DNA of 10,860 nt, taken from a bacterium. Lineage in GTDB: Bacteria; UBP15; UBA6099; JAJRTR01. The stretch's first letter is position 1. Every line of letters starts with the position of its first letter. The position numbers and the translations under genes are program-made. Of the stretch, positions 220-10,643 are shown one piece after another. Under the pieces are notes generated by a model. That model saw only the letters and a program-made list of their open reading frames with translations. It was not told the origin of the DNA and did no database searches. The stretch spans positions 1 through 10,860 of the forward strand of contig JAJRTR010000039.1 of the NCBI GenBank assembly GCA_024278215.1, written 5' to 3'.

Positions 220-1587
220 CTATAACCGTTCAAAAACATTTCTGCCGTCGAGTCTGAGGCCCGCGGTGGGGATTTCGGGGTAAAGGCTCAGGATCGACGG
301 CATTACATCGGCGATATTCAGGTTCTCGACATCAATGATTTTACAGCCGCGCACGCACAATGCGGCATCCCAGTAGGTGTGCATACCGATGATGGCGTCT
401 TTCTGCGTGAAGCTCGGATTCAACAGGTTGCCCTTCAGGTCGTAGCCGTCGTGGGGCAGAGCCACAAGGTCCGCCGTAAGGTCGAAAAGCGGGCCGCTGT
501 ATATCTCCTCGCGCTTGAAAACACTTTTTATTATCGGCTCGCCGGTGTCGGGGTCGGTAAGCGTAAGCAGGAAATCTTTAAGCTCGGCCCTTAGCCTGTC
601 GTACTGTGCGCCGGGTTCGACCGATCCGTTTTTCTCCCGGCCTTTCAGGTTGATGAAAAACCTGCCGGGTATCATGCTGTATGCTTTTGTGTCGGGGTGA
701 ATATCGGCGGGCGATTTTGCTTCTTCGGAGTTCAGCTTCAGGTAGCCTGCCTCGCGCAGCGGCACATTCACATACACTTCCTTTTTCAAGGTGCAGAACC
801 CGTGGTCCGACATTACGATAATCGTGGTTTCTTCCGGCAGCCTGTCGGAGACAGTGCCTATGAAGTCGTCGACTTTCCTGAAGAATTTCATAATCAGAGG
901 CGCATATTTTTCGTCATTCTTATCGAGATACTCCCAGAAGAAGTGGCCGATACGGTCTGTTTCCATAATGTGTGAGATCATGAAATCGGGCTGGTCCGTG
1001 TCCAGCAGGTAGAGTGTCGCCTCGAGCCTTTTCTCCAGCGCAGTGAACAAGTCTTCGAGATAGCCGTCGAGGTCCGACCGTGCTTTCCAGGGGTCGGCGT
1101 CGATAATGTAGCCCATTTCTTTGAGTTTGCCGGCAAGTTGCGGCGGATAGGTGGCTTTATCAATGTTTGTCGCCAGGAAGCAGGAGACCATTGAGCCGTT
1201 GACCTTTTTCGGCGGGTAGGAGATCGGCACATTCATGGCGACAACTTTCCTGCCGTGCTCGCCCAGGATTTCCCACAGTGACTTCTCTTTTATATCCACA
1301 GATGTCGGAATCTTCATCGCCATAGTAGCCGGGTCCCTGTCGATGAAGCCCATAATGCCGTGTTTCGCGGGATTTTTGCCGGTCATGAATGTAGTCCACG
1401 CGACAGAAGATATAGGGGGAATAACAGAATTCATCTGCTTCATGTCGCCGCCGTCACTAATGTTTCCCAGGTTCGGGAATTCGCCTTTTGCGAGCATCCG
1501 CTGGAGGAAGGTAAAGGGAACGCCGTCGATGCCGATGACAAAAACGCGGGGTTTGATCGAACCGCCGCAGCCGTGCTCATTATTCAT
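220..1587 (-). CDS. Alkaline phosphatase superfamily phosphohydrolase (type I phosphodiesterase/nucleotide pyrophosphatase family)
   Basis: A 455-residue metal-dependent hydrolase expected to cleave phosphate mono- or diesters; its substrate cannot be told from sequence. The active-site pattern of the nucleotide pyrophosphatase branch is complete: D21 in VIGIDG, a nucleophile candidate S60 (or S61) in PPISSVAWTTFMTG, D211 and H215 in ETDRIGHFF, D261-H262 in VMSDHGF, and H403 in GMHTYWD. These would hold two metal ions, usually zinc. There is no signal peptide or membrane segment, so a cytoplasmic location is likely, in contrast to many exported relatives. I chose the ATG at 1585-1587 because GGAGAG lies 6 nt upstream; the frame stays open 11 codons further without a better site. 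It sits 135 nt downstream of the response regulator gene on the same strand, with a hairpin and a REP-like repeat between, so co-transcription is uncertain. Confidence 0.9.
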   Translation of the reverse strand: MNNEHGCGGSIKPRVFVIGIDGVPFTFLQRMLAKGEFPNLGNISDGGDMKQMNSVIPPISSVAWTTFMTGKNPAKHGIMGFIDRDPATMAMKIPTSVDIKEKSLWEILGEHGRKVVAMNVPISYPPKKVNGSMVSCFLATNIDKATYPPQLAGKLKEMGYIIDADPWKARSDLDGYLEDLFTALEKRLEATLYLLDTDQPDFMISHIMETDRIGHFFWEYLDKNDEKYAPLIMKFFRKVDDFIGTVSDRLPEETTIIVMSDHGFCTLKKEVYVNVPLREAGYLKLNSEEAKSPADIHPDTKAYSMIPGRFFINLKGREKNGSVEPGAQYDRLRAELKDFLLTLTDPDTGEPIIKSVFKREEIYSGPLFDLTADLVALPHDGYDLKGNLLNPSFTQKDAIIGMHTYWDAALCVRGCKIIDVENLNIADVMPSILSLYPEIPTAGLRLDGRNVFERL

Positions 1588-1624
1588 AATTGCTCTCCTG
1601 CCGTATTGAAATTGTAACACTTAT

Positions 1625-2383: not shown

Positions 2384-4741
2384 ATGAAGACAGGTGGCGA
2401 TCCGTACAATATCATTGACGCAATGAGAAACAGGCACGGCAGCGAGCCGCCTGTAGTCTACAATGTCGGCATCGTAGGCGGCGGGCCGGGCTGCATCGCT
2501 ATTCTCGAGATGGTACACAGCAATGTAATGAAACACTTCAGGATGAACGTCCGGGGCGTGTGCGACATAAACGCCGAAGCACCCGGCATGATCGCCGCGA
2601 AAAAACTCGGTGTGAAAATTGTCACTACAGCTGTCGGCGACCTCTTCGAGATAGACGATCTCAACATGATTATCGAAGTCACCGGCAGGAACGATGTCCG
2701 TGACGAAGTGTTCAGGAACAAACCTGAAAATGTCGAACTCATAGACCACACAGCCGCCCGCCTGCTCTGGGACCTGTATGAAACTCATCTCGAAAAGATC
2801 GAAGCGGATATCAAAGCGAAACGTACCATCAGGGAAGAACGCAACAGGGTCAAGCAGATATTCAACAACCTGCCCGACGCCATCCTTGTGATCGATCTCG
2901 ACATGCGCATCAGGGACACGAACCAGACTTTCCTCGATATCAATAAACTCAAAGAAGAAGATGTTATCGGCAAGTTCTGCTACGAGGTCGAGAACCGCCT
3001 CCGGGGCGAATGCCAGATAACCGAAGAATACTGTCTTTTCAACGAAGTGGTAAGCATGAAAGCCGCCCGCAAAAGTATACAGCGCCATGTGGACAAATCG
3101 CGCGGAGAGGAAATCTTCGCATCCACGTCCATGTCTCCCATGCTGGACGAAAAGGGAAACGTCGTGGGCATCATCGAGGCAAGCAGGGACATTTCATACA
3201 GAATAAAACTCGAGGAAGAACTCGTGCAGTCGAAAATACGGCTCGAAAAGTTCATGGAGTCCGCCCCGTTCTTCATCGCGCTCAAAAACCTCGCAGGCCA
3301 GTACATTCAGATAAATCAGCGCGGCTGCAAAGACCTCGGACTCGACTTCAAAGATATTATCGCGCACACAGACCTCGAGATACTACCTCGCAACACGGCC
3401 GAAATGATCCGCAAAAACGACCACGAAGTCATAAAAAACAAAAAGGAACTCGTCTCACAGGAGATGATCGAACGCGACGGACAGCCCCGCTATTATCACA
3501 CTATAAGATTCCCCATCCTCGACCAGAACCACGAACTCAGCGCCATCTGCATGATCGCTCAGGACATCACTGTGCTCAAAGAAACGCAGTTTAAGCTCAA
3601 TAAGAAACAGCACGAACTCGAAGACACCAAAGAATATCTCCAGTCCATCCTGGAAAACTCGACAGATATTATCATTACTACCGACCTCAACGAAAACATC
3701 GTTTCCTTCAACAGGGGCGCAGAGAAGATGACCGGCTACAACAGGTACTCCGTCATGGGCAAACCCGCCTCGCTCCTTTATATCGATCCCGCAGACCGCA
3801 GTAAGTTTATGAGCAAACTCGCGGATAAAAACAGCATAACCGGCCTGGAAGTCATGCTGAAAGACTTCAACGGCAACAAGATTTTTACAGACGCTACCAT
3901 CTCGAAGCTCTACGACAACACCGGCACAATCATCGGAACGGTCGAGATATTCCGCGACGTAACCACAAGAAAACAACTTCAGGAACAACTCATAAGAACC
4001 GACCGCCTCGCAGCCATAGGCAAACTCGGCGCGGGTGTCGCCCATGAAATAAACAATCCGACCGCTGTCATCGGCGAAGCTGTCGGCTGGATATCCGAAC
4101 TTGTCGCAAGCGACAAAATTATGCGGAAATCCGGCAATTACGACGAGTTCATGTCCACCATCGGCATCATCAAGAAACAGGCCGCGCGCATAACGGATAT
4201 CACTCACAGGCTACTCGGGTTCGCCTCGCAAACCGAATCCACTCCGGAAAAAGTCGACATAAACCATGTCGTCGACGAAGTCATCAAGTTCACTTCGCGC
4301 ATCAAGGGTACTTCCAACGTGAAACTCCACAAGCACTTCGCCGAAGACCTGCCCAGCCTCAATCTCAATGAGATCCAGCTCCAGCAGGTGTTCGTTAATA
4401 TCGTTGACAACGCTGTGGATTCAATACGCGGAAATGGTAATATTACGATCACAACATCGCAGGAGGGCGATAATGTTCTGGTGACAATCTCCGACGACGG
4501 GCCGGGCATAGACCCGCAGGTGCTCGACAGGATTTTCGATCCCTTCGTGTCCACAAAACCTGTCGGCAAAGGCACCGGCCTCGGCCTCTCTATATGCTAC
4601 GGAATAATAAAACAGATGGGCGGCTCGATCCAGGGCGAGTCGATGCCGGGCGCAGGCGCAACTTTCACAATATCGCTCCCTGTCATAGAACACACCGACG
4701 ACAGCGACGAAGCCGATGCTCCCGGTCTCGCGGATTTATAA
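2384..4741 (+). CDS. PAS-domain sensor histidine kinase with an N-terminal Rossmann (NAD-binding-like) domain
   Basis: A 785-residue kinase with no membrane segment. Residues about 25-135 form a dehydrogenase-like Rossmann unit: the glycine-rich loop VGGGPGC (31-37), an acidic residue after the second strand (D61 in GVCDIN), and IIEVTG (96-101). Three PAS domains follow at about 153-272, 284-397 and 415-528. The first contains a cysteine cluster (C199, C210, C217). The transmitter carries the phosphorylation site H554 in GVAHEINNP, the N box at about 668-678, ISDDGPGID (702-710), FDPFVSTK (718-725) and GTGLGLSI (730-737), so it should be catalytically competent. The Rossmann unit probably reads a dinucleotide or redox state rather than catalysing a reaction, since no dehydrogenase catalytic domain follows it; this is inference. 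The start is fixed by AGGAGG 6 nt upstream. The best partner is the divergent receiver. Such kinases are, to my knowledge, recurrent in Deltaproteobacteria but poorly characterised. Confidence 0.93.
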   Translation: MKTGGDPYNIIDAMRNRHGSEPPVVYNVGIVGGGPGCIAILEMVHSNVMKHFRMNVRGVCDINAEAPGMIAAKKLGVKIVTTAVGDLFEIDDLNMIIEVTGRNDVRDEVFRNKPENVELIDHTAARLLWDLYETHLEKIEADIKAKRTIREERNRVKQIFNNLPDAILVIDLDMRIRDTNQTFLDINKLKEEDVIGKFCYEVENRLRGECQITEEYCLFNEVVSMKAARKSIQRHVDKSRGEEIFASTSMSPMLDEKGNVVGIIEASRDISYRIKLEEELVQSKIRLEKFMESAPFFIALKNLAGQYIQINQRGCKDLGLDFKDIIAHTDLEILPRNTAEMIRKNDHEVIKNKKELVSQEMIERDGQPRYYHTIRFPILDQNHELSAICMIAQDITVLKETQFKLNKKQHELEDTKEYLQSILENSTDIIITTDLNENIVSFNRGAEKMTGYNRYSVMGKPASLLYIDPADRSKFMSKLADKNSITGLEVMLKDFNGNKIFTDATISKLYDNTGTIIGTVEIFRDVTTRKQLQEQLIRTDRLAAIGKLGAGVAHEINNPTAVIGEAVGWISELVASDKIMRKSGNYDEFMSTIGIIKKQAARITDITHRLLGFASQTESTPEKVDINHVVDEVIKFTSRIKGTSNVKLHKHFAEDLPSLNLNEIQLQQVFVNIVDNAVDSIRGNGNITITTSQEGDNVLVTISDDGPGIDPQVLDRIFDPFVSTKPVGKGTGLGLSICYGIIKQMGGSIQGESMPGAGATFTISLPVIEHTDDSDEADAPGLADL

Positions 4742-8450: not shown

Positions 8451-10643
8451 ATGAAAAAGATTAAAGTCTCCAGTGGAATATTCTGGGTTGAAGAACCAGA
8501 GACAGACCTGCGCGTCTTATGCGGATGCCCCGCGGACAGTGTCAAACACCTGATGCGTAAAGGGCTGATAATCGAGCAGGAGTTAAACGGAATATCGTGC
8601 GAAACAGGTCCGAACGCGATACTGCTTTCAGACCTGCCGCTCCAGAAAGAGCACTTTGCAAATCTTGCGGAATTCCCTGTGCTTCAGATGCTCTACAGGC
8701 AGGGTATGATGATTCCCGGCCATCCCGGCAATACAGGGGATAAGCCGTTGCTGATCGGCATCGAAGACCAGGTGCTCGCACAAGCGGAGTATATCTACCG
8801 GGGTAACTACGGACTGGATTCGAAGGAAAAAATGGTTGCCGCGGGAATAAGCGGCAAGCTCGCTGAAAACCTGATGCGGATGAAGATGAAATTTTCTTTT
8901 GATGAAATAAAAAAGACCGATGAATTGCTTGATATAAGGGTAGTTGAAGATGAGCGTATCGAGATAAAAAACGGCGTTTTCATAAAAAGAACCGCTACAA
9001 ATGTTTATGAATTCAGCTATAACGGCAGCCGGGTCGAGGTGGACCTGAACCTGCAATACAACGAAAGTTATGAAGCGCCTTACAGCCTGGGCCACCACAA
9101 GATAAAAAGACAATACTTCAGCGTGATTCACACAGGAGAAGGCAACGGCTGGGACATCAACAGACCGTGCATGAGCAGCATAATAACATACCAGGGAAAA
9201 ATATACCTGATAGACGCGGGCCCGAACATCACACACGCTCTCACCTCTCTGGGTATCAGTGCAAACGAAATCGAAGGCATCTTCCATACACATGCCCACG
9301 ACGATCATTTCAACGGCCTGACAGTGCTCCTGCGCTCGGACCACCGCGTGAAGTACTTCTCGACACCACTCGTGAGGGCTTCAGTGGAAAGAAAACTGGG
9401 CGCGCTGCTGTCTCTCGACCGCGACGATTTCTCGAAAAATTTCGAAGTGCACGACCTCGAACTGGACAAATGGAACAACATCGAGGGGCTCGAAGTCAGA
9501 CCGGTGCTGTCGCCCCATCCGGTCGAAACAAATATCTTGTTCTTCCGCGTTTTATGGGAAAACGGATACAAGACCTACGCGCATTTTGCCGACATCGCCG
9601 CGTTCGACGTTCTCAACAGCATGGTAACCGACGACCCCAAAGGCCATGGAATATCGAAAGAATATTGTGAAGAAGTCAAGAAAATGTACATGACGCCGGT
9701 CAACCTCAAAAAGCTGGACATCGGCGGCGGCATGATTCACGGCAAAGCAAAAGATTTTACAGAAGACCAATCGGATAAAATCCTGCTGAGCCATACTGAA
9801 GAAGCGCTCACGGACAAACAGAAAGAAATAGGCGCAAGCACATCTTTCGGCATGGCGGATGTGCTGATAACGGCGCAGCAGGATTTTATAAAAAGCAATG
9901 CGTTCAAACACCTCAAAATGTATTTTCCCGAAGCGCCGCAATACGAACTCAGCCTGCTGCTCAACTGCCCGGTCGCTTCATATAATCCCGGGTCCTTCAT
10001 CCTGAGAAAAGGCGAAATGCCCGACAAACTTTATTTCCTGCTTTCCGGCATAGTCGAGTACATCGCAACAGACCACGGCTCTCACAATTATCTTTCGTCA
10101 GGCACGATAATGGGGGAGATCGCCGCACTGTCATATTCCGAAATAAGAGGAACCTACAGGGCCGCAAGCATTGCCTACGCACTCGAGATACCATGCAGCC
10201 TTTACCTTGAATTCGCAAAACGCAATAATCTCCTCGGTAAAATAAAACAGAATCTCGGATTAAGGCGTTTCATTCAGGGCACATGGCTGATCGGAGACAT
10301 GATCTCGTGCCCCGTCAAAAGTCGTCTTGTCCGGAGCGCTACAGAAGTCGAATTCGAAACAAACCAGGAATTGATTCCCGATGAAAAGGGAGACCTGTTC
10401 ATTATACACGAAGGAGCAATGGACATTTACTACAAAGATGAGAGAATAGACGTCCAGGGCTCCGGCGGCGTATTCGGCGAGGAAAAGATTTTATTCGGCA
10501 AACACAGCACAGTGAGAGCAAAAACGATCACAGAATCCAAAATACTTCAAATACCGGCAGAGGCCTTGCAGGGAATACCCATCATACAGTGGAAACTGCT
10601 CGAACTCTACGAAAAACGCACCAAACGCTGGAAGTATGAATAA
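8451..10643 (+). CDS. Metallo-beta-lactamase-fold protein with two C-terminal cyclic-nucleotide-binding domains
   Basis: A 730-residue soluble fusion protein. Residues 1 to about 225 match no domain I can name; they include an LCGCP motif (C24, C26). The metallo-beta-lactamase fold covers roughly 226-450 with a full di-metal site: H281, H283, D285 and H286 in HTHAHDDHF, then H356 (SPHPVE), D381 (HFADIA) and H448 (LLSHTEE). It could be a hydrolase or a di-iron sensor; the substrate is unknown. Two cyclic-nucleotide-binding folds follow at about 492-597 and 627-722. Each keeps the phosphate-binding-cassette marks: G555-E556 with R570-A571, and G676-E677 with R689-A690. No DNA-binding helix-turn-helix follows, so it is not a CRP-type regulator; ligand binding probably gates the MBL unit. 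I chose the ATG at 8451, preceded by GGTGAGG; a GTG at 8442 in frame overlaps that site. I recall similar proteins in other bacteria, without an assigned function. Confidence 0.85.
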   Translation: MKKIKVSSGIFWVEEPETDLRVLCGCPADSVKHLMRKGLIIEQELNGISCETGPNAILLSDLPLQKEHFANLAEFPVLQMLYRQGMMIPGHPGNTGDKPLLIGIEDQVLAQAEYIYRGNYGLDSKEKMVAAGISGKLAENLMRMKMKFSFDEIKKTDELLDIRVVEDERIEIKNGVFIKRTATNVYEFSYNGSRVEVDLNLQYNESYEAPYSLGHHKIKRQYFSVIHTGEGNGWDINRPCMSSIITYQGKIYLIDAGPNITHALTSLGISANEIEGIFHTHAHDDHFNGLTVLLRSDHRVKYFSTPLVRASVERKLGALLSLDRDDFSKNFEVHDLELDKWNNIEGLEVRPVLSPHPVETNILFFRVLWENGYKTYAHFADIAAFDVLNSMVTDDPKGHGISKEYCEEVKKMYMTPVNLKKLDIGGGMIHGKAKDFTEDQSDKILLSHTEEALTDKQKEIGASTSFGMADVLITAQQDFIKSNAFKHLKMYFPEAPQYELSLLLNCPVASYNPGSFILRKGEMPDKLYFLLSGIVEYIATDHGSHNYLSSGTIMGEIAALSYSEIRGTYRAASIAYALEIPCSLYLEFAKRNNLLGKIKQNLGLRRFIQGTWLIGDMISCPVKSRLVRSATEVEFETNQELIPDEKGDLFIIHEGAMDIYYKDERIDVQGSGGVFGEEKILFGKHSTVRAKTITESKILQIPAEALQGIPIIQWKLLELYEKRTKRWKYE

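Follow-up and report, generated by a model that had tools for sequence, protein, structure and literature searches.

In the long-form tRNase Z of eukaryotes, typified by ELAC2, two metallo-beta-lactamase (MBL) domains share one chain; the N-terminal domain lacks zinc ligands and is inactive, and the C-terminal one is active (PMC11144196). The class II phosphodiesterases, Apyc1 and related enzymes, form homodimers, and catalysis by Apyc1 uses residues E74 and Y112 contributed by the partner protomer (PMC9117128). The 730-residue protein described here is encoded by a single open reading frame in the window (the whole stretch of bacterial DNA analysed, 10,860 nucleotides) and resembles both systems. 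Like ELAC2, it carries an MBL domain without metal ligands ahead of a second MBL domain, and the latter shares with Apyc1 and other class II MBL phosphodiesterases (YhfI, yeast PDE1) the catalytic fold and the HxHxDH-H-D-H set of ligands. The pseudodimer layout is that of ELAC2 and, in the form of a true homodimer, that of Apyc1, YhfI and short RNase Z. Unlike ELAC2, the window protein is bacterial, much shorter, apparently devoid of the tRNA-binding extensions and not a member of that family at the sequence level, and its own family carries cyclic-nucleotide-binding (CNB), hemerythrin, receiver or SBP_bac_3 regulatory domains. Apyc1, YhfI and PDE1 are single-domain homodimers with no CNB domain, whereas here a degenerate partner and two CNB domains lie in the same chain, and the score for the Pfam family Apyc1 (PF23023) stays below the cut-off (19.7 versus 50 bits). 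The tandem CNB arrangement is that of the regulatory domains of PKA and PKG, but it is joined to an MBL enzyme rather than to a kinase.

The reading frame is open from 8442 (GTG) or 8451 (ATG) through 10643; the ATG agrees with the N terminus of the family and is preceded closely by GAGG. Pfam detects Lactamase_B_2 (7e-9, residues 253-386) and two stretches of cNMP_binding (PF00027, 9.9e-19, 67.6 bits versus a cut-off of 27.5), so that the MBL domain and both CNB domains exceed the curated cut-offs; weak matches to DUF4473 and DUF7898 fell below theirs and were dropped. The whole protein was modelled by AF2 with a pLDDT of 89.6 and a pTM of 0.91. In agreement with the sequence-only reading, which held that no DNA-binding or membrane part exists, neither a helix-turn-helix nor a membrane segment is visible in this model, and no DNA-binding family of Pfam is matched by the protein. 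The winged helix that follows the CNB domain in transcription factors of the CRP/FNR type is absent, the second CNB domain ending in the model at about residue 709 and being followed by a single helix (710-729). The resulting order of domains, dead MBL, live MBL, CNB and CNB (Table 1), is assigned with high confidence, and it is not a product of chance since full-length relatives occur in several phyla. CRP-type sites in the window number four, with 3.7 expected, and none lies just upstream of the gene; an Rfam search gave no match. The protein is not assigned to defence, since its matches to the defence library were confined to the CNB domains that Pycsar proteins carry.

Table 1. Features of the gene and its product in window coordinates; residue numbers refer to the 730-residue protein.
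Feature	Position	Strand	Basis or remark
Whole gene, 730 aa	8451..10643	+	ATG 8451 preferred; in-frame GTG 8442 also possible
N-terminal pseudo-MBL domain, residues 1-212, no metal ligands	8451..9086	+	AF2 model; Foldseek and VIA matches
SDLPLQ, residues 60-65 (S-D-x-x-x-Q in the family), at the place of HxHxDH in the pseudo-domain	8628..8645	+	Hand alignment; putative equivalence
E74, pseudo-domain	8670..8672	+	75/76, one D; about at the place of Apyc1 catalytic E74
Y120 of the invariant G-N-Y-G turn, pseudo-domain	8808..8810	+	75/76, one F; putatively close to where Y112 of the Apyc1 partner protomer lies
Catalytic MBL domain, residues 213-474	9087..9872	+	Pfam; VIA and profile matches to Apyc1
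HAHDDH metal motif: H281, H283, D285, H286	9291..9308	+	76/76
Other metal ligands: H356; D381; H448	9516-9518; 9591-9593; 9792-9794	+	76/76
CNB domain 1, about residues 490-605	9918..10265	+	Pfam cNMP_binding; model
Phosphate-binding cassette 1: G555-E556 ... Y569-R570-A571	10113..10166	+	Sequence
CNB domain 2, about residues 606-725	10266..10625	+	Pfam, second stretch; model
Phosphate-binding cassette 2: G676-E677 ... V688-R689-A690	10476..10520	+	Sequence

The metal centre of residues 213-474 is probably a di-metal one, with zinc as the predicted metal. The seven ligands, H281, H283, D285, H286, H356, D381 and H448, had been read as complete, and this holds for the family as well, in which each is retained by 76 of 76 sequences. 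The alpha-beta-beta-alpha fold is recovered by VIA structure alignment, with Z scores of 22-25 to Apyc1, PqqB, YhfI and RNase Z. For residues 222-474 the first matches are to Apyc1 (7u2r, Z 24.7, 220 residues aligned, 2.4 A; 7u2s, 24.6; 7t28, 23.9), followed by a Brucella protein with GMP (3md7, 22.9) or AMP (3qh8, 22.7) and, at about 21-23, by PqqB, YhfI, a PhnP-family diphosphatase (6b9v, 22.6) and RNase Z (22.0). Apyc1 is also first (6e-8) when a profile of the catalytic domain is compared with the PDB. The nearest relative of the live domain is thus Apyc1, which is a phosphodiesterase of cyclic mononucleotides, although this closeness of fold leaves the substrate unfixed, the folds of RNase Z, PhnP and PqqB lying within about 2-3 Z units.

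The pattern HxExD is that of di-iron flavodiiron and ODP proteins, and HxHxDH-H-D-H is typical of zinc phosphodiesterases. The protein has HAHDDH where HxExD would stand, within a complete HxHxDH-H-D-H set, and its best fold matches are phosphodiesterases; a di-iron sensor, as earlier envisaged for the MBL domain, here one for oxygen like the ODP and flavodiiron proteins, is therefore very improbable. The family is tied to oxygen or redox by the hemerythrin domains of 34 of its 76 members, the paralogue in the same genome among them; these are di-iron domains, but the window protein has none.

Nor is it probable that the gene encodes a bacterial long-form tRNase Z, that is, a regulated nuclease processing the 3' ends of tRNA or other RNA. 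The succession of a dead and a live MBL domain is indeed that of ELAC2, and RNase_Z is the best NCBIfam match (2.5e-11). The score for TIGR02651, however, is only 43.2 bits against a cut-off of 292.95, and a separate, canonical RNase Z exceeding this cut-off (330 bits) is encoded elsewhere in the genome. The catalytic domain is of the size of Apyc1 (about 250 residues) and smaller than RNase Z chains of about 307. A tRNA-binding arm is a feature of RNase Z, and both MBL domains, judged by their lengths, seem too short to accommodate one. Taken with the canonical enzyme elsewhere and the score far below the cut-off, this makes a role in tRNA maturation unlikely.

The N-terminal region of about 225 residues had been left without an assignment, and structure prediction now supplies one: residues 1-212, modelled alone with a pLDDT of 92.7 and a pTM of 0.88, appear in the AF2 model as a second MBL-fold domain without the metal motif. 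Foldseek places Apyc1 first (2.3e-4), with ELAC1 at 9.4e-4, and VIA aligns the domain with RNase Z (1y44, Z 12.2, 150 residues, 3.2 A), arylsulfatase (8gyg, 11.5), Apyc1 (7t28, 11.4) and PqqB (10.5), values that are moderate yet above the chance level of this tool (Z 7-8). Profile searches of the region alone, which the sequence-only reading had proposed, gave no match in the PDB, and the fold was resolved by structure comparison alone. Homology to MBL proteins rests on structure, since the relation is detected by no sequence method: Pfam and NCBIfam have no match to residues 1-212 either, and hhalign against the protein's own catalytic domain returns a probability of 0.3%. None of the 76 members has the HxHxDH motif in the first domain, and all 76 have it in the second. 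Residues 1-474 align in one piece with human ELAC2 (8rr1, VIA Z 20.4, 370 residues, 4.2 A), so that the placement of the two domains, beyond the fold of each, resembles that of long-form tRNase Z.

The pseudo-domain has its own conserved residues. At the putative place of the lost motif, S60, D61 and Q65 are conserved at a level of at least 97% (76 sequences). By hand alignment, which is uncertain by about one residue, E74 would be the counterpart of the catalytic E74 of Apyc1, and Y120, aligned by hand in the same way, may be that of the Y112 which the partner protomer contributes. At the corresponding places of the live domain the residues vary (the V292 and S321 columns). This pattern is compatible with the dead domain completing the active site of the live one, within the uncertainty of a residue or so. 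Among the complete frames fetched, the N-terminal domain never occurs without the MBL and CNB domains; two short frames that resembled CNB-less members (G147, G124) both reach the ends of their contigs and were discarded.

Both CNB domains of the window protein keep the Gly-Glu and Arg-Ala positions that the sequence-only reading had listed, with the key pairs E556/R570 and E677/R689 intact, and by profile their best matches in the PDB are the regulatory domains of cGMP- and cAMP-dependent kinases. Given these cassettes and the lack of any other sensor in the chain, a cyclic nucleotide is the most likely input. Cyclic-nucleotide gating, as earlier suggested, thus agrees with the window protein, but it is not a rule of the family: the glutamate of the first cassette is kept in 49 of 76 members and the arginine of the second in 25, so that nucleotide gating can at best be one among several inputs family-wide.

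Such losses also bear on the view that the CNB domains are mainly structural, bind no cyclic nucleotide in vivo and leave the core to be regulated by partner proteins or dimerisation. They are far less conserved than the core, with 3% of columns in each CNB domain conserved at 97% or more as against about 25% in the dead and about 21% in the live domain, and a mean pairwise identity of 0.33 and 0.31 as against 0.58 for each MBL domain (76 sequences). The first-cassette glutamate is gone in 27 members, mostly of one sensor-fused clade, and yet every member retains the CNB fold. Against this stand the glutamate and arginine present in both cassettes of the window protein and the glutamate kept in 45 of the 51 members that have no N-terminal sensor, which render a mainly structural role unlikely. 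The association of sensor fusion with loss of this glutamate (21 lost and 4 kept among 25 fused members, 6 lost and 45 kept among 51 unfused) was rejected as statistical evidence, as it falls mostly within one clade, and an independent-pairs test had no power on a tree with three changes of fusion and six of the glutamate.

The main reading, to which a probability of about 0.5 is given, is that of a signal-gated metallo-phosphodiesterase working as an intramolecular pseudodimer, probably on a cyclic nucleotide; its activity, substrate, nucleotide binding by the CNB domains and direction of control are all predicted. Residues 1-474 would form the pseudodimer, in which the dead domain, having lost its metals, would serve as a scaffold and probably lend conserved residues to the active site, and the domain at 213-474 would hold the di-metal, probably zinc, centre and perform catalysis. 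Binding of cyclic nucleotide to the C-terminal tandem CNB domains would change the activity of the core. The substrate would most likely be a nucleotide phosphodiester messenger, with cAMP, cGMP or a related cyclic mononucleotide as first choice, which would make the protein a messenger phosphodiesterase under feedback control. The core of relatives may receive its input instead, or additionally, from receiver domains, from SBP_bac_3 sensors in the periplasm or from hemerythrin. Confidence in the exact substrate is clearly lower than in the architecture.

The earlier guess that the enzyme might act on a cyclic nucleotide itself has gained some ground, and it may do so: Apyc1 is closest by profile and by fold, and the genome encodes eight class III nucleotidyl cyclases at E < 1e-11 and a ninth by a weak match. 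Among other genomes tested, cyclases occur in 27 of 28 that bear the family, but also in 16 of 20 genomes without the family. Cyclases being common in both, their presence is consistent with a role in cyclic-nucleotide turnover and does not prove it.

It is also conceivable, though rather less probable than hydrolysis of a cyclic mononucleotide, that the enzyme cleaves another nucleotide-linked bond, either within a dinucleotide (cyclic or linear) or a nucleotide diphosphate or between AMP and an AMPylated protein. The CNB domains would then report the state of cAMP or cGMP. The PhnP-family diphosphatase and RNase Z are among the fold neighbours listed above, and RNase Z has been reported as a deAMPylase (PMC12663964). 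Several members have genes of the GGDEF or GGDEF-EAL type adjoining or nearby (L067, L007, L016 and L073). Such genes are common anyway, however, and Apyc1 ranks first in both structure and profile, which argues against this alternative.

The same layout was found at 24 loci of the genome contigs searched, in Desulfobacteraceae, Desulfatibacillum, Magnetococcales, Rhodospirillaceae/Telmatospirillum, beta- and gammaproteobacteria, Spirochaetes, Nitrospirae and Nitrospinota. Within the small phylum to which the window belongs, 5 of 7 genomes carry the family. In the phylum that includes Magnetaquicoccus it is present in 55 of 398 genomes, with as many as six copies in one genome; the counts are 7 of 198 for the phylum of the Spirochaete genome and 4 of 297 for that of the Desulfobacteraceae genome. 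No plasmid copy was found. The window's genome itself contains a paralogue, 56% identical, with a C-terminal hemerythrin domain. Six copies are present in the 4.1 Mb genome of Magnetaquicoccus inordinatus (G009), where receiver-fused, SBP_bac_3-fused, plain and hemerythrin versions stand together.

Fusions of three kinds were confirmed by Pfam. A receiver and a coiled coil precede the core at L013, L014, L015, L021-L023, L052, L053 and others, and SBP_bac_3 with a membrane helix and a coiled coil does so at L018, L019, L063, L071 and L094. C-terminal hemerythrin, present in 34 of 76 members, fits the full seven-ligand pattern in 17 of these 34, and one member (L097) has both receiver and hemerythrin. 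The hemerythrin domains of L002, L030 and L099 lack at least one iron ligand, so not all can be oxygen binders. The placing of a receiver or SBP_bac_3 domain and a coiled coil before the output recalls REC-GGDEF, REC-HD-GYP, REC-PP2C and SBP_bac_3-GGDEF-EAL proteins, but the output is here a tandem MBL and not a cyclase, EAL, HD-GYP or PP2C domain.

Since the core is highly conserved while the CNB pair is not, and is fused to varied sensors, the dead and live MBL domains together behave as an output module that can be moved between signalling proteins. The domain composition, the pairing of a dead with a live domain, the conservation of metal ligands across the family and the fusions are computed results. 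A wider proposal, advanced tentatively, is that the core is a general and previously unrecognised bacterial output module that removes a nucleotide messenger, and a bacterial counterpart of the pseudoenzyme-enzyme pair of ELAC2. Second-messenger networks in bacteria are interpreted from their output domains, and a near-unchanged core exchanged among four kinds of input has the signature of an output enzyme, one that has as yet neither a name nor an assigned reaction. If the proposal is correct, it would stand beside GGDEF, EAL, HD-GYP and PP2C, taking as inputs cyclic nucleotide, oxygen (hemerythrin), phosphorylation (receiver) and periplasmic solutes, and it would offer a compact bacterial case of an ELAC2-like pair. 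The components are each known; for their combination, a bacterial tandem of dead and live MBL domains fused to CNB domains and interchangeable sensors, literature searches of open-licence papers found no description.

Among the neighbourhoods compared, no partner gene is common to the whole family. In a Magnetaquicoccus genome an SBP_bac_3-GGDEF-EAL gene (L073:7316-9958, +) lies directly upstream of a hemerythrin-bearing member; its SBP_bac_3 domain is of the type fused to the MBL core elsewhere, which suggests an exchange of sensors with c-di-GMP enzymes. Three genomes from the same phylum as the window (G003/G005/G006) have a gene for a STAS-domain, anti-anti-sigma-like protein just upstream of their hemerythrin-bearing member (L068:9764-10105, -; L030:976-1317, +; L070:3944-4285, -), which may point to partner-switching control. 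A SpoIIE phosphatase gene adjoins the member at L015, the receiver-fused one of the isolate Desulfatibacillum alkenivorans DSM 16219, and a CheA-like kinase gene that at L021.

Other genes of the window encode signalling and phosphodiesterase-type proteins. A histidine kinase that bears three PAS domains is encoded at 2384-4741 (+); its first approximately 130 residues (VGIVGGGPGC...VRGVCDINAEAPG...) have no match in Pfam or, by sequence, in the PDB and resemble a dinucleotide-binding Rossmann fold; the kinase is possibly NAD(H)- or redox-sensing. A stand-alone receiver domain encoded divergently next to it (1723-2118, -) is its likely partner. The gene at 220-1620 (-) codes for a type I phosphodiesterase/nucleotide pyrophosphatase (PF01663, 5e-45), another enzyme of phosphodiesterase type on the contig.
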